Assembly (NCBI GenBank): GCA_015069185.1
Contig: SVJB01000003.1
Location: 1 to 64,000 of the forward strand
DNA: 64,000 bases
DNA from: Oscillospiraceae bacterium
GTDB taxonomy: Bacteria > Bacillota > Clostridia > UBA1212 > UBA1255
Direction of reading: 5' to 3'
In this document: positions 22,182 through 45,125 of the stretch, piece after piece
Layout: each line of letters starts with the position of its first letter
Numbering within the stretch: position 1 is the stretch's first letter
The notes under the pieces: generated by a model
What the model was told of the DNA's origin: nothing
Database searches by the model: none
Seen by the model: the letters and a program-made list of their open reading frames with translations, nothing else
Translations under genes and position numbers: made by a program

Positions 22182-22883
22182 ATGTCTTTGTATGTAATAG
22201 GGGACTTACATCTTGGTAGCGCAATAGATAAGCCTATGGATATTTTTGGCGAAAATTGGAGCAACCATCAACAAAAAATTGCAGACAACTGGACCGGCAA
22301 GATCAAAGACAGCGACTGGGTAGTCCTTGCGGGAGATCATTCGTGGGGTACCAAAGATACAGATATTATTCCTGATCTTACATTTATTAATAATCTGCCC
22401 GGAAATAAAATATTACTCAAAGGTAATCATGATATATGGTGGAAAACAACTAAAAAGAATAATGAATTCCTTGAGAAATACAAATTAGACCGTTTGCATA
22501 TGCTTTCTTACGGTGCTATGCGTATTGAGAATTTAATTGTATGTACTTTTCGTGGTTGGCTTTGTCCGGGCTCTGAAAATTATACAGAGTCTGATCGGAA
22601 AATATATAACAGAGAAGTTCTCAAACTGAGGGAATCAATTCGCAGAGCACAAGATCTCAGACATGGAAATGAAGAGATTATCTTATTCATGCATTTCCCT
22701 CCTTGTATAAATGGCGAAAAGAATGAAATCACACAAATAATTGAAGAAAACGATATAAAACGCTGCTATTTTGGCCATATACATGGAATAAATAACAAGG
22801 ACTGTGATATACACAGTCCCGTTACTAAATACAAATTAATTTCTGCGGATTTTATTGGTTTTGATCCTGTTCTTGTGGAGTAA
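22182..22883 (+). CDS. Calcineurin-like metallophosphoesterase
   Basis: 233 aa. The fold's metal-binding motifs are visible: YVIGDLHLG (residues 4-12), VVLAGDHSWG near 46, LLKGNHDIWW near 77, LFMHFPP near 168 and CYFGHIHG near 193. The second motif has GDHSWG where GDISW is the usual reading in this subfamily. Such proteins are predicted phosphohydrolases; the substrate is unknown. AAAGGAGGG precedes the ATG within uvrC, so it is co-transcribed. The last 32 bases overlap the convergent diacylglycerol kinase gene. Confidence 0.85.
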   Translation: MSLYVIGDLHLGSAIDKPMDIFGENWSNHQQKIADNWTGKIKDSDWVVLAGDHSWGTKDTDIIPDLTFINNLPGNKILLKGNHDIWWKTTKKNNEFLEKYKLDRLHMLSYGAMRIENLIVCTFRGWLCPGSENYTESDRKIYNREVLKLRESIRRAQDLRHGNEEIILFMHFPPCINGEKNEITQIIEENDIKRCYFGHIHGINNKDCDIHSPVTKYKLISADFIGFDPVLVE

Positions 22884-23811
22884 ACATCTTTTCAGTACGT
22901 TTTACATTTGTTGGGATTAACAGATTAACCGCTTTGGGAATAACCTTAACATGAAGCGGCAGTCCTCCTCCGTTCTCACCGTCATAGTCAACATGATACT
23001 CATCTATTTCCTCTGCGGGCCTTACGTATAATTCCTTGACTCTATGATATTCTGCATGAACGTTTTCTTCCAGTGAGCCATTTAAAACACGCACTGCCAC
23101 ACCTGCAGCTTGTACAATGTTGATTTTATCTACAATATACAGATCAAGATATCCGTCGTCTAGTGTGGCTTTTGGGGCTATTTTATGGAAACCACCTACG
23201 CTCTTTGAGTTAGAAACAAAGAAGAAGAAATTATCATGTACTTCTGTTTCTTTTCCGTCAATTGTGAAAATCAGCTTAGTAGTTGGCCAATTTATATGAG
23301 CAAGTTTCTTAAGCCCTACTGTGTAATATCCTACCATACCATATTTTGTCTTAATATCTCTTGTCACACTATGAGCTACGTCAGATAACATGCCGCCTGC
23401 TGCAACATTAAGGAAATATGAATCGTTGAATGATGCTATATCTATGGTTTTATATGTAAAGCTCTTTACCATATTATACAGACAAGGAGCTGTAGGCTTG
23501 ATACCTACTGAATACGCAAAATCATTTGAAGTACCGGCAGGCAAGATCGCAAGTGGGATAGTGCTATTGGATTTATACAAACCAAGGACAGCTTCGTTTA
23601 TAGTGCCGTCACCGCCGACTGCAACTACAAAATCATATCCTGTCTCCTGCGCAGTCAGAGCTTTGTTATAAGCATCATCTTTGCCTCTGGTATAGAACAC
23701 ATCAGCTTGACTGAGAGTACCGTCTTTAAGCAACATCTGCATAGCAGATAGTGCAGCGTTCTGAGCTTTGCCGTTGCCACTAACAGGATTTATTATGAAT
23801 AACGCGTACAT
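22852..23811 (-). CDS. Diacylglycerol/lipid kinase (DagK, YegS/DgkB family)
   Basis: 319 aa. Soluble lipid kinase that returns diacylglycerol to phosphatidic acid, salvaging lipid released when teichoic acids or lipoproteins are modified. Motifs: FIINPVSGNGKA (residues 5-16), VAVGGDGTINEAV (near 63), LPAGTSNDFAYSVG (near 88) and DDGYLDLYIV near 216. AGGAGATG precedes the ATG. It follows the sigma-like/propeller gene by 34 bases and, with cardiolipin synthase further upstream, makes a three-gene minus-strand envelope lipid operon. Confidence 0.9.
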   Translation of the reverse strand: MYALFIINPVSGNGKAQNAALSAMQMLLKDGTLSQADVFYTRGKDDAYNKALTAQETGYDFVVAVGGDGTINEAVLGLYKSNSTIPLAILPAGTSNDFAYSVGIKPTAPCLYNMVKSFTYKTIDIASFNDSYFLNVAAGGMLSDVAHSVTRDIKTKYGMVGYYTVGLKKLAHINWPTTKLIFTIDGKETEVHDNFFFFVSNSKSVGGFHKIAPKATLDDGYLDLYIVDKINIVQAAGVAVRVLNGSLEENVHAEYHRVKELYVRPAEEIDEYHVDYDGENGGGLPLHVKVIPKAVNLLIPTNVKRTEKMFTPQEQDQNQ

Positions 23812-23845: not shown

Positions 23846-25552
23846 TCAATATATTACCATAGGTGAACTGTCGCTTATTTTATATGATATTAAGTGCCTT
23901 GTCGAGTCTTTTTTTCCATCTGAATAATAACAGAATATATAATCCTCTGTTACAAGGAAATCTGTTATAGCGTTATCAAGAGTCTTTGATACAACAAGCT
24001 CAGGCTTGCCACCATCAAATCCAACTTTATAAATGCCGTCTTTGGCTGCGAAATATGTGACAGTATTTACCACCTGGAAGGCTCCGGTCTCCAGTATAAT
24101 CGGATCGCCTTCATAAGTAAGTGGTGCATTGATCGTATCGTACGTTGAATATGTCCTGCCAACTGTGAAAATTCTCTGTGTTTCAAGATTTATTTTATAT
24201 AAATTAATTTCGTTCTTTACTACATAATCAAAGTAAAGGTATTCGTTATCATACATAATTGTATATGCTTCATCTGTAAAGAGGCCCTGGTTAAGGGGTG
24301 TGCCTTCGTAAGTGTATATCTCATGTATTCCTTTTCCGGCACCACTACAGAAATAAACTGTACCATCAGCGCCTACTTCAAGGTCTACGCAGAATAGTGA
24401 ACTGTCTTGTGTTGTGTCCAGTATTAGTTCAGGCTCTGCAGCAGATAAATCGGGAGATGCAAGATTGACACGATATATACCACCGGTAGAACCGAAATAA
24501 ATATGATTGTCATGGATATCTAAAGAAACTCCCGGCATATATGATATTCTCATCGGCTCTGCGCCATCTGTTGATGTTTTATAAATGTAACCATCGCTTT
24601 GATTCCTATAGTACAGATATGTACCATCTGTAACGATTTCTTTAGGATAAGCTCCTGTAACAATCACTTTGCCTGTTGCATCTTTGGATGGATTGATACT
24701 GCATAAGTCCTTACCATTCTCGCTACAGTAATATAAATGGCTACCTAAACTTATCATGGCAGTTGTGTTTTCATATTGGATAACAGTAGAGTCGTATGTG
24801 TCAGGTGACTCCTTATCTTTGAAGAAGAAATAAATTACTAAAGTAACAAGAGATACTAACAAAATAACAATAAAGCAGGTGAGTATAATACGACGACTTG
24901 CCTTGGGTGTTTCTTCGTTGTTTGTAATATCAATTTTTTCTACATAATTTATGCTCTCGTCAGACAGACCTGCCATTTGTTCTGAACTGTCAGATTCGAT
25001 ATATGCCCAGTAATCAGGACACGCCTTGATAGCATCTTCCTTCAAAATAGATATAATTTCATTCTTTGAGTAGTAATTGTTTTTTATCTTAAGTTGAGTA
25101 ATACCTCTGTTGTATTCAGCTTTACACGAGGATTTATAATAATTAAGCAGTTTTGCAATATCGCTTTGGCGGAGCGAACTTAACAAACGAAGTAATATAA
25201 TGGAAGCACGGTCGTTTTTTGAATTGTTTATCAATTCACCGAGTAGCAAAGAAGCGTTGTCAATTCTTTGCCTGGCAAGTTGGTTTTGCAGCGCGGGTGT
25301 TGTCAGCGCGTTGCAGCTGAGCCTGTATGCTATGTCTAAAATCCAATATTCACCATTCAGGTCAGTATCAAACTTATAGGCAGATTGCTTGATGCGCTTA
25401 AACGTCTCTGCAGCAATGTCGCGGGCAATACTTTTATTCTTTACAATGCTGAGGGAAAGTGAATATACACTAACTTTCATTTTCTGATAGAGTTCATGAA
25501 AATCTTCCTGTGACTCTTTGGCTACACCGACAATTAAATACTCAATATTCAT
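23846..25552 (-). CDS. Membrane-spanning sigma-70-like protein with extracytoplasmic beta-propeller (DUF5050-like)
   Basis: 568 aa with an unusual make-up. Residues about 10-80 resemble sigma region 2 of ECF factors (LYQKMKVSVYSLSLSIVKNK, ARDIAAETFKRI, YWILDIAYRLS). Residues about 112-158 resemble region 4, ending in a helix-turn-helix-like LRQSDIAKLLNYYKSSCKAE. One membrane helix lies at about 220-246 (IILTCFIVILLVSLVTLVIY) after basic RR. The outer part (about 255-568) has repeated strands of the type YLYYRNQSDGYIYK, HIYFGSTGGIYRV, TVYFCSGAG, the pattern of DUF5050-type propellers. I infer that a sensor outside the membrane is tied directly to a DNA- or polymerase-binding inner half. The region 2 and 4 resemblance is by eye and divergent. 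Flanked by cardiolipin synthase and lipid kinase genes. Confidence 0.7.
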   Translation of the reverse strand: MNIEYLIVGVAKESQEDFHELYQKMKVSVYSLSLSIVKNKSIARDIAAETFKRIKQSAYKFDTDLNGEYWILDIAYRLSCNALTTPALQNQLARQRIDNASLLLGELINNSKNDRASIILLRLLSSLRQSDIAKLLNYYKSSCKAEYNRGITQLKIKNNYYSKNEIISILKEDAIKACPDYWAYIESDSSEQMAGLSDESINYVEKIDITNNEETPKASRRIILTCFIVILLVSLVTLVIYFFFKDKESPDTYDSTVIQYENTTAMISLGSHLYYCSENGKDLCSINPSKDATGKVIVTGAYPKEIVTDGTYLYYRNQSDGYIYKTSTDGAEPMRISYMPGVSLDIHDNHIYFGSTGGIYRVNLASPDLSAAEPELILDTTQDSSLFCVDLEVGADGTVYFCSGAGKGIHEIYTYEGTPLNQGLFTDEAYTIMYDNEYLYFDYVVKNEINLYKINLETQRIFTVGRTYSTYDTINAPLTYEGDPIILETGAFQVVNTVTYFAAKDGIYKVGFDGGKPELVVSKTLDNAITDFLVTEDYIFCYYSDGKKDSTRHLISYKISDSSPMVIY

Positions 25553-25600: not shown

Positions 25601-27178
25601 CTATAGCATGGGGGAGAAAAAGTTCAGAAAACGTTGTTTTATTTTCATAAAAATAGGTCTTTTTTTCCAATTGTTGTATTCTATTTGCTTTGAGAGGGCC
25701 AGCGTCTGTAGAAAATCACTCTTTATATCTGATACACTTTGTGTACCGCACAACCATACTGCATTTTCATAATGTAAGAAAAACGAGCGGAAATCCATGT
25801 TTATGGTGCCAACAATAGCGGATGTATCGTCTGTAACAAGATTTTTAGCATGTATAAAGCCAGGAGTGTATTCATAAATTTTCACGCCGGCCTCAAGCAG
25901 TCTTCCGTAATGCGAATTAGTGACTAAATATACGTATTTTTTGTCCGGTATGCTTGGTGTGATAATACGCACATCTACTCCACTTTGTGCAGCTATGATC
26001 AATGCAGTTTGCATTTCGTTATCAAGAACAAGATAGGGCGTTGTAATGAAAATGTAATTCCGGGCAGAATTTATCATCTGCATATACATATGTTCTGCAG
26101 TATTGTTTACTGTCTGATTGCATGGTCCGTTACAAAAAGGCTGAACGAACCCCGCCTTTTCACCGTGAAAAGGTGGCTTAGGGGCATACTCATGCAATTT
26201 ATCTCTATACGATATCATTTCGTTTTTATCGCGGGCATATTGCCACATTTGAAGAAACATTATTGTCATACTCCACACCGCATCTCCTTCGAGACGTATA
26301 CCCGAATCTTTCCAATGACCAAATGCTTCTACAAGATTTGCATATTCATCTGCAATATTAACTCCACCGGTATATGCAATGTTACCGTCAATAACACAAA
26401 TTTTCTGATGATTTCTATAGTTAAGATAGAAATTGTTTACAAAAGGACGAGCTTTATTAAAAGCAGCTGCCTGAATACCATACTGCTTCATTCTTGCCGG
26501 AAAATTCTTGGGAAGTGTTGATATACAGCCCATATCATCGTATAGTAACTTAATCTCAACGCCTTCTCTTGCCTTTTCGGAAAGAATTTCCATTAATTCA
26601 TCAAGAATATTTCCGCTTGAAACAATAAAATATTCTAAAAAAATAAATTTTTCTGCTTTTTTGATATCATCAAATAATGCTGTAAAATATTCATCTCCTA
26701 TTGCAAAATACTTAGTTGCGGTGTTCTCATAAATAGGGAAGCCGGCTTTGTTCAGATGAACCATACGGCGTTCCATTTCAGGATATTGTTCAACCAGTCT
26801 GCTGCGTGTTTGAGGATTCCATTTGTATAGAGGAATTGTCATTTCTGATATAATAGGTATGCGGCGTTTTAACACTTTTGATTGATGTGGCTGGCCCCAC
26901 ATCAGATAGCATATCAGTCCAAAAATTGGTATGATAATAAGTACTGTTATCCATGCTATTTTATATGATGCTTTACGCTTGTCCACTACAATATTAAGAG
27001 CTGTCATTGCTGTTAGAAAATGGATAATAATATATGATGTAAGAGCAAATATGTTCAAGGAGAAAAAGGCCCATATCAGGAATACTATCTGGAATAAAAC
27101 AAATATTGCAGATATAATAAGTCTAGAGTAATTTCCTTTGCGCCTACGTGGTTTGTTGTAATCTGATGTACTATCCAT
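25601..27178 (-). CDS. cls: Cardiolipin synthase (phospholipase D family)
   Basis: 525 aa from the ATG at 27178, which has AGGAGGTG eight bases upstream; 31 further upstream codons lack support. It makes cardiolipin from two phosphatidylglycerols. Two N-terminal membrane helices (about 20-80) include the family's LIPIFGLICYLMWG. Both HKD motifs are intact: HQKICVIDGNIAYTGGVN and HAKNLVTDDTSAIVGTIN. First gene of an apparent operon with the sigma-like/propeller protein (48 bases downstream) and the lipid kinase. Confidence 0.93.
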   Translation of the reverse strand: MDSTSDYNKPRRRKGNYSRLIISAIFVLFQIVFLIWAFFSLNIFALTSYIIIHFLTAMTALNIVVDKRKASYKIAWITVLIIIPIFGLICYLMWGQPHQSKVLKRRIPIISEMTIPLYKWNPQTRSRLVEQYPEMERRMVHLNKAGFPIYENTATKYFAIGDEYFTALFDDIKKAEKFIFLEYFIVSSGNILDELMEILSEKAREGVEIKLLYDDMGCISTLPKNFPARMKQYGIQAAAFNKARPFVNNFYLNYRNHQKICVIDGNIAYTGGVNIADEYANLVEAFGHWKDSGIRLEGDAVWSMTIMFLQMWQYARDKNEMISYRDKLHEYAPKPPFHGEKAGFVQPFCNGPCNQTVNNTAEHMYMQMINSARNYIFITTPYLVLDNEMQTALIIAAQSGVDVRIITPSIPDKKYVYLVTNSHYGRLLEAGVKIYEYTPGFIHAKNLVTDDTSAIVGTINMDFRSFFLHYENAVWLCGTQSVSDIKSDFLQTLALSKQIEYNNWKKRPIFMKIKQRFLNFFSPML

Positions 27179-27204
27179 GAAATAACACCTCCTGATGTGA
27201 ATAA

Positions 27205-27232
27205 AGTATACCCTTGAAATAAAATCATGCAA
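27205..27232 (-). promoter_or_regulatory. Promoter for the cls operon
   Basis: Complement reads TTGCAT-N16-TATACT, ending 26 bases before the cls start codon. Confidence 0.5.
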
Positions 27233-27264
27233 AATCTTTACCTTATCATGTATGTTTATTGCCA

Positions 27265-27293
27265 TTGACACTATAAAAACAGAGTGCTAAAAT
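27265..27293 (+). promoter_or_regulatory. Promoter for the ferredoxin gene
   Basis: TTGACA, 17 bases, TAAAAT; perfect -35. Predicted start near 27300, a leader of about 25 bases. Confidence 0.6.
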
Positions 27294-42024: not shown

Positions 42025-43503
42025 ATGGCAGGAAAATTAATGGTTTACAATACATTGACAAGAAGAAAGGAAGAGCTCAGGCCTTTATCAGGTAACGAAA
42101 TATCAATTTATTCTTGTGGCCCTACAGTATATAACTACGCACATATAGGTAATCTGAGAACATATATATTTATGGATACTTTGAGAAGAGTCCTCAAGTA
42201 TAATGGATACAAGCTTAAACACGTTATGAATATTACTGATGTAGGTCATCTTGTATCAGATGCTGACGATGGAGAGGACAAGATGGTAAAGGCTGCTAAG
42301 GAACAGCAGAAGTCACCTTGGGAAATCGCAGAGTATTATACAGGTATATTCTTTAAGGATCTTGCAAAGCTCAATATTGATTTGCCTGAGATAATAGAGA
42401 AAGTCACTAACCATATCAACGATATGATTGAGTTTGTGGAGAAGCTCCTTGAAGTTGGTGTTGCATACGAGACAAGCGATGGTATTTACTATGACATTTC
42501 AAAATTCCATAACTACGGTAAACTCTCACGTATGAATTTTGAAGAGCAGATTGCAGGTGCCAGCGAGCGTGTTGATGAGAATGTTGAGAAGCGTCATCCG
42601 TCTGACTTTGCGTTGTGGATCAAGGCTCCTAAGGAACACATTATGCAGTGGCCCAGTCCTTGGGGCATGGGTTATCCGGGTTGGCATATTGAATGTTCTA
42701 CTTTGGCAAAGCTGTATCTCGGTGATGAATTTGACATTCATACAGGTGGTGTAGACCATATACCGATTCACCATGAGAATGAAATCGCTCAATCAGAGGC
42801 TCTGACAGGCAAGAAAGTAACTCAGTACTGGATGCACGCCGAGTTCTTGCTGGTAAATAACGGAAAGATGTCCAAAAGTCTGGGCAACACATATACAATT
42901 GATAATTTGGCAGAAAAAGGTTTCTCACCACTTTGCTATAGATATTTCTGCCTGAATGGCAACTATAGAAACAAGCTTAACTTTACATGGGATTCACTGT
43001 CTGCGGCCAAGTCATCCCTCCAGCATTTTTACGAGGCACTTAAGAAGCATAAGGATGCAGGTGATATTGCCATAGACGAAGTGATTGGTGAAGATAGTAA
43101 AATGGCCGGATATAACGATGAAAATGTGGGCAAGAATATTCTTGATGTGTACAAATCAGAGTTCGATAATGCGGTAAATGATGATCTTAACATTCCTCTT
43201 GCACTTGGTGTTGTATGGAATGCTTTGAGATATCCTGTGAAAAGTAAAAAAATCTATGACTTCGTTGTTGCTACAGACGAAATTTTAGGTTTAGACATGG
43301 AAAAAGAAGTTGAGCTCCTTAGTAAAGATGTAGATGAGGAACAGATATTTTCACCTGAGATAATGGAACTTGTGGCTCAAAGAACACAGGCTAAGAAGGA
43401 TAAACAATATGCCCTGGCTGACGAGATTCGCGCAAAGCTTCTTGATATGGGCATTGTACTTACAGATACGAAGGATGGCGTAAAGGTTGCCTATAAACAA
43501 TAA
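42025..43503 (+). CDS. cysS: Cysteinyl-tRNA synthetase
   Basis: 492 aa from the ATG at 42025 after GAAAGGTGAC. Class I synthetase charging tRNA-Cys. The HIGH-type motif is AHIGNLRTY (about 39-47) beside the zinc ligand Cys31; the later zinc ligands lie in HIECSTLAKLYLG and the GGVDHIPIHHENE motif; KMSKS is at 281-285. The C-terminal anticodon-binding part is normal. cysE-cysS is a common Firmicute order. The end overlaps the sigH start by 17 bases. Confidence 0.96.
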   Translation: MAGKLMVYNTLTRRKEELRPLSGNEISIYSCGPTVYNYAHIGNLRTYIFMDTLRRVLKYNGYKLKHVMNITDVGHLVSDADDGEDKMVKAAKEQQKSPWEIAEYYTGIFFKDLAKLNIDLPEIIEKVTNHINDMIEFVEKLLEVGVAYETSDGIYYDISKFHNYGKLSRMNFEEQIAGASERVDENVEKRHPSDFALWIKAPKEHIMQWPSPWGMGYPGWHIECSTLAKLYLGDEFDIHTGGVDHIPIHHENEIAQSEALTGKKVTQYWMHAEFLLVNNGKMSKSLGNTYTIDNLAEKGFSPLCYRYFCLNGNYRNKLNFTWDSLSAAKSSLQHFYEALKKHKDAGDIAIDEVIGEDSKMAGYNDENVGKNILDVYKSEFDNAVNDDLNIPLALGVVWNALRYPVKSKKIYDFVVATDEILGLDMEKEVELLSKDVDEEQIFSPEIMELVAQRTQAKKDKQYALADEIRAKLLDMGIVLTDTKDGVKVAYKQ

Positions 43504-44059
43504 CGAATATAGCGATGAATATTATGTTGACCTTGTACGCAAGGGAGACGAGACAGCTTGTGAATATCTGTTGGATAAGTACAAGCCTACTGTTCGTGTT
43601 GTTACGAGAAGCTTCTATTTGGTAGGTGCAGAGGGCGATGATATTGTTCAGGAAGGTATGATTGGCTTATATAAGGCTATATGTAGTTACAGTAGTGATA
43701 AGAATGTACCCTTTGCCGCATATGCCAAGCTTTGTATCAGAAGCCAGATTATTACAGCAATTAAAAATGCATCTCGTATGAAACATAAACCGCTTAATGA
43801 ATATGTATCCATAGAGGATCAGGGTCTGCTATCAATGGAGGTCGGAGGCCCGGAGGAACAGTTTATTACAGAAGAATCTTATGAGATTCTAAGTAATAGG
43901 ATAAACGACATTTTAAGTAAGTTTGAGATATCTGTTTTACAGCTTTATCTTGGTGGCAAGACGTATCGTGAGATATCAGAGCTGCTGGATAAGGATATAA
44001 AAGCAATAGATAATGCGCTTCAGAGAATTAAAAGCAAACTGAGAAAATGGAAAGAATAA
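43487..44059 (+). CDS. sigH: RNA polymerase sigma-H factor (Spo0H)
   Basis: 190 aa. Transition-phase sigma factor that starts sporulation gene expression. Region 2 is visible with DIVQEGMIGLYKAICSYSSDKNVPFAAYAKLCIRSQI (read in part), and region 4 with ISELLDKDIKAIDNALQRIKSKL. The cysS-sigH neighbourhood matches the B. subtilis region. Region 2 is well kept; TTG start inside cysS, where the AAAGG site is very close to the codon, so the true start is not certain. No alternative in-frame start is better. Confidence 0.9.
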   Translation: MPINNNEYSDEYYVDLVRKGDETACEYLLDKYKPTVRVVTRSFYLVGAEGDDIVQEGMIGLYKAICSYSSDKNVPFAAYAKLCIRSQIITAIKNASRMKHKPLNEYVSIEDQGLLSMEVGGPEEQFITEESYEILSNRINDILSKFEISVLQLYLGGKTYREISELLDKDIKAIDNALQRIKSKLRKWKE

Positions 44060-44069
44060 CAGGTAATAA

Positions 44070-45125
44070 ATGGTAAAGATTAGGTCGTTTACAGAAAAAT
44101 ATGTAAAACAATTCGCAATTGTTGTGTTAGTTGCGACTGTTGTAGCTACGGCCTTTATCTCCCATTACAGAGTAAATTCATATAGCATAGGTTATGAAGA
44201 AGCTATTATTTTGGGGCAGCTTGGTATTTTCACAGGTTACGAGGAAGGAATTGACGATACAGAATTTCGTGATTTTCTGCAATCCAAGGCCAGCGTAAAC
44301 ACTGCCATTTTGTCTTTTAAGCGTATGCAGGGTGCGTATAATATTAATGGTGTTGACGGGTCAATATTAAATGAAGATGACATGTTTCTGTATTATAAGT
44401 ACCTGGATATTGATGCTGTGCCGGATTTGATGCCTGCAGGTAAGGACGCGAAGGACAGGATTTCTGCTCGCGAGGCGTATTACATGGCGGTGAGAGCTCT
44501 GGGGTATAGCGAGTATGATTATAGCGGATTTGCTTCGGATGAATCAGACGGTCTGCTTGAGTTCATACAGCATCTTCAGTTTGGATTCACACTTCCTGTT
44601 GATGAAGTTGAGGAACTGACAAACGGCGAACTTGCATGCATTATTTACGAAACCTTCTACGCTATTCCCGATGGAGCTGATATTCAGGTGTACAGAATCC
44701 GCGCAAATATTAATTCTGACTTCAAGCGTCTCCTGCTGGAACACGGCTTATATGATGATATACCTGTAACATACGTGCCGCTTTTCGTAAATGGCGTATA
44801 CGCTCAGGATACTTTTTTTGCTTTTATGGGTGAAAATGCTGAGGGTACTTTGCCAAAGAACGAGTGGGGAGCAACATACAGTTACGCGTCACAAATGGAC
44901 GCTGATGACTATATTGAGTTATTGAAGACAAACGGTTACACAGTGGATTCCCAGTATAATATGGAACACACAGATGACTTTGGTATGACATACAACTACA
45001 TCATTACGTTAATGTACAAAGAAGTAAGCTGTCCATATAAAGGTGAGAATATAGAAATGACTGCTTACTGTGTACTGAAATACGATATAGATAACGATAC
45101 GCTGGAATGGAATTTATTAATATAA
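44070..45125 (+). CDS. Unknown exported or membrane-anchored protein
   Basis: 351 aa. A hydrophobic segment at residues about 14-32 acts as signal anchor. The rest is acidic. Residues about 40-140 contain helical stretches of the S-layer-homology flavour (EEAIILGQLGIFTGYEEG, ISAREAYYMAVRALGY) but not a full SLH triad. The last 100 residues have mixed alpha/beta character (ENIEMTAYCVLKYDIDNDTLEW). I do not recognise a family. It lies ten bases after sigH and 21 bases before thyA, so it is co-transcribed with both. Confidence 0.8.
   Translation: MVKIRSFTEKYVKQFAIVVLVATVVATAFISHYRVNSYSIGYEEAIILGQLGIFTGYEEGIDDTEFRDFLQSKASVNTAILSFKRMQGAYNINGVDGSILNEDDMFLYYKYLDIDAVPDLMPAGKDAKDRISAREAYYMAVRALGYSEYDYSGFASDESDGLLEFIQHLQFGFTLPVDEVEELTNGELACIIYETFYAIPDGADIQVYRIRANINSDFKRLLLEHGLYDDIPVTYVPLFVNGVYAQDTFFAFMGENAEGTLPKNEWGATYSYASQMDADDYIELLKTNGYTVDSQYNMEHTDDFGMTYNYIITLMYKEVSCPYKGENIEMTAYCVLKYDIDNDTLEWNLLI

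Follow-up and report, generated by a model that had tools for sequence, protein, structure and literature searches.

Proteins in which an ECF sigma factor is fused to its anti-sigma factor are uncommon and are known mainly from Pseudomonas and Streptomyces. In IutY of Pseudomonas putida (group ECF243) the sigma and anti-sigma parts share one chain, and both an active sigma factor and its release by proteolysis were shown (PMC5411451). The one-chain ECF/anti-sigma proteins of groups ECF48, ECF52 and ECF53 are also thought to act by proteolytic release (PMC8999054). We analysed a stretch of 64,000 nucleotides from an Oscillospiraceae bacterium, referred to as the window, which encodes such a fusion at 23846..25552 on the minus strand. 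The open reading frame and its orthologues delineate a protein of 568 amino acids that joins a sigma-like part, an anti-sigma segment, a membrane helix and a beta-propeller. That this is a fused sigma/anti-sigma/sensor architecture we hold with high confidence, and the sigma part and the anti-sigma segment lie in one frame with the membrane helix, which is what defines a fused ECF/anti-sigma protein. An earlier note on this DNA had placed sensor and sigma-like part in a single chain, and this was borne out by profile matches, structure models and conservation.

The gene, read from 25552 to 23846, is one intact open frame of 568 codons that starts with ATG and is preceded by the Shine-Dalgarno-like sequence GGAAGG. 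In its product a helical N-terminal part is followed by one membrane helix and then by a C-terminal part made of beta-sheet, and an AlphaFold2 model of the whole protein (30 orthologues) reached a mean pLDDT of 86.8. The same fusion, which the note had proposed to look for in related genomes, is present as one full-length, one-frame copy in 30 of the 31 genomes of the order, and the orthologues are 24-62% identical to the window protein. Each of the 29 orthologues from other genomes is a single open frame with no stops. These full-length frames in independent genomes exclude two genes joined through a frameshift, an objection that the note itself had raised, and make any such artefact, including misassembly or a chance frame, exceedingly improbable. 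The one genome of the order in which no full-length fusion was found, G016, is 84% complete; its locus L067 (2262-3872) encodes a membrane helix with a DUF5050 propeller and a dockerin. We considered this match as a variant fusion and rejected it, as it has no sigma part and is not an orthologue. Outside the order no full-length fusion was found among the 391 class-wide and 349 phylum-wide genomes sampled, where the matches were stand-alone ECF sigma factors or DUF5050-like proteins. Nine named MAG contigs that carry the fusion are mostly from rumen or gut Clostridia, and one is labelled Mageeibacillus sp. UBA1255. The best conserved part of the family is the sigma2 domain, with a mean pairwise identity of 42% vs 29% for the propeller, and therefore the sigma half is under constraint and not decaying.

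The sigma half comprises a sigma2-like domain (residues 2-88; 25289..25549, minus strand) and a sigma4-like domain (residues 112-157; 25082..25219, minus strand), the latter with the HTH equivalent at residues 125-157 and with E146; profiles, structure models and Foldseek agree that both folds are present. The reading of the N-terminal residues as divergent ECF regions 2 and 4, made in the earlier note, thus stands. Residues 1-157 match the NCBIfam ECF models SigX, SigK and SigW with E-values of 1e-8 to 1e-9, far under the curated cut-offs. The Pfam match to Sigma70_r2 is weak and below cut-off (E = 0.033 for the whole protein and 0.006 for the half alone), and the N-terminal part scores 16.8 of 24 bits for it and 21.8 of 42.9 bits for TIGR02937. 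The solved SigK was matched with E = 0.001 by the single sequence and with 1.6e-12 by the family profile, which also matched the solved SigW (1.8e-11). The absence of a sigma fold, which the note had named as decisive against it, was not observed: the AlphaFold2 model of residues 1-205 (mean pLDDT 92.0, pTM 0.90) matches solved ECF sigma factors, and Foldseek returned inhibitor-bound structures first. These were SigW-RsiW (5wuq, E = 1.9e-4, TM 0.67 on target), CnrH-CnrY (TM 0.72 on target), SigK-RskA, AlgU-MucA and RpoE-NepR, and the PhyR-NepR fold was also matched. The sigma2-like domain matched region 2 of sigma-E (4lup) with a TM of 0.86 on target, and sigma factors from initiation complexes align to the model of residues 1-205 only with an rmsd near 22-29. 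That the model is closed does not prove inhibition, because AlphaFold may be expected to draw ECF factors closed in general. Fusions of one genus, g2 (L004, L016, L021, L022 and L023), are without the helix that joins sigma2 and sigma4, and their region-4 turn is shorter by 4-5 residues.

Directly after the sigma4 domain the linker carries, throughout the family, the motif ExxxxLxxDxxxxCPDYxxxI (residues 163-188; 24989..25066, minus strand), and the N-termini of RsgI_M-type anti-sigma factors have a common motif like EIExKIxxAVxxxVPDVLDSIL. We delimited this segment by hhalign, hmmsearch and the structure model, in which the helix of residues 163-177 has a pLDDT of about 95. With single sequences the best match of an anti-sigma HMM fell on the linker in 19 of the 30 fusions, and since the signal was weak in about a third of the members, a profile-profile test was run. 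Here hhalign aligned a profile of 25 fusions, the short genus-g2 form left out, to RsgI-type anti-sigma N-termini with a probability of 94.4, P = 9.3e-8 and a score of 32.2, vs a best score of 12.9 in 200 column-permuted controls. Applied to the 512 long frames in 20 neighbourhoods, the HMM ranked the fusion linker of four genomes first to fourth. The P179-D180 of the motif is retained in the fusions, and no match to a zinc-finger anti-sigma domain was found in the fusion with Pfam or NCBIfam. As judged from these profile comparisons, residues 163-188 and the segment at the N-terminus of RsgI-type anti-sigma factors are homologous. The statement that an anti-sigma factor is missing held for the adjacent genes, which encode a diacylglycerol kinase and a cardiolipin-synthase-like PLD protein and no separate anti-sigma factor, but it did not hold for the chain, which contains its own.

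When the sigma half by itself was searched against the class, the best matches outside the order were stand-alone ECF sigma factors (examples are in genomes G251, G236, G064, G231, G146, G063, G265, G305, G302, G191, G075 and G099), and an independent search located RsgI_M-type anti-sigma genes directly downstream of these ECF genes, with 4-bp overlaps or short gaps. In a midpoint-rooted tree the 30 sigma domains of the fusions formed one clade (support 99/98) beside the closest stand-alone ECFs, and the join was supported by 93/87. Because of the linker homology, the ECF/RsgI_M gene pairs and the tree, we conclude on sequence grounds that the fusion descends, as one chain, from an ECF sigma/RsgI-type anti-sigma operon and has a DUF5050 propeller as its outside part.

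Several other sigma factor loci were seen in these genomes. On contig 13 of the window's genome (G000; L072, 1848-3166) a stand-alone ECF gene overlaps the gene of a 261-aa membrane protein, the C-terminal tail of which resembles the anti-sigma motif by eye, perhaps in reverse topology; this anti-sigma candidate is plausible by eye and was missed by the motif HMM. Genus g4 (L107, L110, L111, L113, L115, L117, L123, L125 and L131) has many pairs of an ECF factor and a one-helix anti-sigma protein of 527-626 aa, with diverse outside parts and, at the N-terminus, a short motif like LxxYMKxLPxDxLxE. The window itself holds, at 43487-45125, a sigma-H-like gene followed by a gene of 351 aa.

The single transmembrane helix of the earlier note was confirmed at residues 220-245 (24818..24895, minus strand), with 222-242 by hydropathy, which is strongly hydrophobic there and shows no comparable stretch elsewhere in the protein. 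By the positive-inside rule one expects a cytosolic sigma part and an outside propeller, because the family mean net charge of the 15 flanking residues is +4.9 on the N side of the helix and -0.2 on its C side. The note's extracytoplasmic, propeller-like part corresponds to a DUF5050-like beta-propeller at residues 258-568 (23849..24781, minus strand). Its membership in this family is evident both from Pfam, where the DUF5050 match at residues 253-366 is above cut-off (E = 1e-11), and from the fold, as the full-length model returned beta-propellers, including 3s25 and BamB.

The DNA-facing surface of the sigma half was compared with the 18 closest stand-alone ECFs and with 33 ECFs from genomes of the order, four of which are in both sets. 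In the equivalent of region 2.3-2.4 (residues 61-85; 25298..25372, minus strand) the net charge is reversed to acidic in the alignment, with -5 to -1 in 30 of 30 fusions; the closest ECFs range from +3 to +6 and those of the order from -1 to +5, so that near-neutral values also occur in a few of the order's ordinary ECFs. T73 is replaced by D or E in 29 of the 30 fusions, N77 is kept in 14 of them (vs 18/18 closest ECFs and 31/33 ECFs of the order), and K/R146 of the -35 recognition helix in region 4 became E in 29/30. The basic promoter-contact surface formed by regions 2.3-2.4 and 4.2 is hence absent in the fusions, and because this feature was tested and not found, we class the protein as a fused ECF/anti-sigma receptor and not as an ECF sigma factor proper. 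The promoter contacts of ECF factors differ among groups. In region 2.2 the Q48 residue (Q/N/H at this position) is lost in all 30 fusions, and D/E45 and E49, as well as R149 of region 4, are mostly kept; from what is known of region 2.2 of sigma70 and ECF factors, we take positions 45, 48 and 49 to be core-polymerase-binding. Some contact with RNA polymerase or DNA could persist, because 45 and 49 are acidic and R149 is mostly kept. Several buried positions are retained (Y22, L34, A43, W70 and L78).

Charges were also exchanged between the two domains, where position 62, mostly K/R, became D, position 115 changed from E to R and position 122 from H to R/K, a pattern that would fit a tightening of the closed sigma2-sigma4 form. 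In the CnrH-CnrY structure sigma4 is buried against the -10 surface of sigma2, and this structure superimposes on PhyR-NepR (PMC4598750). A new conserved polar set, R53, N81 and E146, is found in the fusions. In L021, of genus g2, R53, N81, E146 and R149 are all lost together. The joint loss of R53 and E146 is only a hint at a salt bridge between sigma2 and sigma4, because L021 is also without N81 and R149.

In the window the genes of the PLD protein, the fusion and the diacylglycerol kinase are co-directional. The kinase gene (DagK; DAGK_cat and YegS_C; 22852..23811, minus strand) starts 34 bp downstream of the fusion and is its direct downstream neighbour in 19 of 20 genomes, and the cardiolipin-synthase-like PLD gene (25601..27271, minus strand) lies 48 bp upstream and is a neighbour in 12 of the 20. 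Other recurrent neighbours are a metallophosphoesterase (15 genomes) and UvrC (12). The conserved lipid-gene neighbours, as an association only, hint at control of membrane lipids or the envelope.

We propose that sigma2-sigma4 lie in the cytosol, followed by their own anti-sigma segment, the membrane helix and the DUF5050 propeller, which would be the sensor outside the cell. The anti-sigma segment would keep the cytosolic part closed until a signal received by the propeller loosens or cleaves it. Because the DNA-facing surfaces are remodelled, protein contact by a membrane-tethered sigma mimic would be a likelier output than promoter recognition, and the pathway would be tied to phospholipid/diacylglycerol turnover. 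We regard an output through protein contacts as evenly balanced between right and wrong, and rate the tethered mimic somewhat likelier than a promoter-reading sigma factor freed by proteolysis. The complete proposal, of an order-wide, membrane-anchored pseudo-sigma that reads no promoters, acts by protein contact and couples a surface propeller to membrane-lipid metabolism, is put forward tentatively.

Alternatively, the protein may be a tethered but active ECF sigma factor. Site-1/site-2 cleavage would then follow a signal at the propeller, the freed sigma factor would direct RNA polymerase to a regulon, and its anti-sigma segment would be trimmed by cytosolic proteases, as for IutY of Pseudomonas putida; this account has a substantial minority chance of being correct. 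The order of the parts is the same as in IutY (PMC5411451) and in ECF48/52/53 (PMC8999054), which speaks for this account. So do the retained D/E45 and E49 of region 2.2 and the RseP-type site-2 protease model, which had a match in each of the 29 genomes searched, above cut-off in 25. RseP-type protease genes occur in most bacteria. A freed, promoter-reading sigma is doubtful, because region 2.3-2.4 is acidic and the K/R of the -35 helix is now Glu. Such loss or reversal of promoter-facing residues throughout the family speaks against an active sigma factor, and so do the partly deleted region-4 turn of genus g2 and, as a weak test, the AAC-N-CGT promoters of the ECF type upstream of the fusion, which are not in excess (3 vs 5.1 expected), an autoregulatory promoter being rejected as none was above chance. 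The earlier note had the sigma half either working at the membrane or released by proteolysis; both options presuppose promoter reading, and the residues by which its closest stand-alone relatives face promoter DNA are replaced throughout the family.

The mimic could also take the specific form of a PhyR-like partner switch, in which the sigma-like part is a decoy that captures an anti-sigma factor in trans and thereby frees another sigma factor. There is a precedent in PhyR, the sigma-like domain of which binds an anti-sigma factor and has no sigma action (PMC4598750, PMC8999054), and the structure search returned the CnrH-CnrY and PhyR-NepR folds. However, neither the window's genome (85% complete) nor several other fusion carriers yielded an RsgI_M-type anti-sigma factor, and no receiver domain was found in the fusion with Pfam. 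We consider such a switch improbable. It is likewise unlikely that the sigma fold is a mere structural domain in the cytosol of a propeller receptor with DagK and cardiolipin synthase as its direct targets. The conserved neighbourhood and the remodelled sigma surface would fit such a receptor, but the retention of P179-D180 and of the new polar set suggests a switch and not a passive scaffold.

With a nearly universal single-copy gene in one order of Clostridia from the gut and rumen, and a clear two-gene ancestor, the fusion shows a two-gene switch turning into one receptor. A full-text literature search for sigma factors together with DUF5050 gave a single paper, which judging by title and abstract deals with something else. 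If the sigma half lost promoter binding, the protein would represent a transmembrane type of sigma mimic, without description in the literature searched, and, if the proposal is true, it would offer a way into the control of envelope lipids in a group that has hardly any genetics.

Compared with the ECF groups, through the descriptions given in reviews, the fusion has another anti-sigma segment and another outside domain than IutY, ECF48/52/53 and ECF57. Like IutY (PMC5411451) it combines a sigma domain, a single membrane helix and an extracytoplasmic regulatory part in one chain, whereas IutY belongs to a Gram-negative iron-siderophore system with an outer-membrane receptor and no propeller, and the RsgI-type anti-sigma segment and the remodelled DNA-facing surface distinguish the window fusion from it. 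In ECF48, ECF52 and ECF53 of Actinobacteria, such as SCO4117, the ECF is likewise fused C-terminally to an anti-sigma-like region, a membrane helix and an outside domain (PMC8999054), but these proteins have a zinc-finger anti-sigma domain and SCO4117 also a carbohydrate-binding outside part, neither of which was found in the window fusion. ECF57 of Planctomycetes is similar in that an ECF is joined to propeller-type (WD40-like) repeats, and differs in its phylum and in its suggested action by protein interaction; an RsgI-type anti-sigma segment is unmentioned in the review (PMC8999054). When read as a mimic, the fusion resembles PhyR of Alphaproteobacteria, the sigma-like domain of which has no sigma activity, yet PhyR is a soluble response regulator with an anti-sigma partner in trans, NepR, and the fusion is a transmembrane protein with no receiver domain. 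The closest stand-alone relatives of its sigma domain and anti-sigma segment are the ECF/RsgI_M-type operons of Clostridia, which consist of two genes, keep the promoter-facing residues intact and have an RsgI_M outside part, often with PepSY, in place of the DUF5050 propeller of the fusion.
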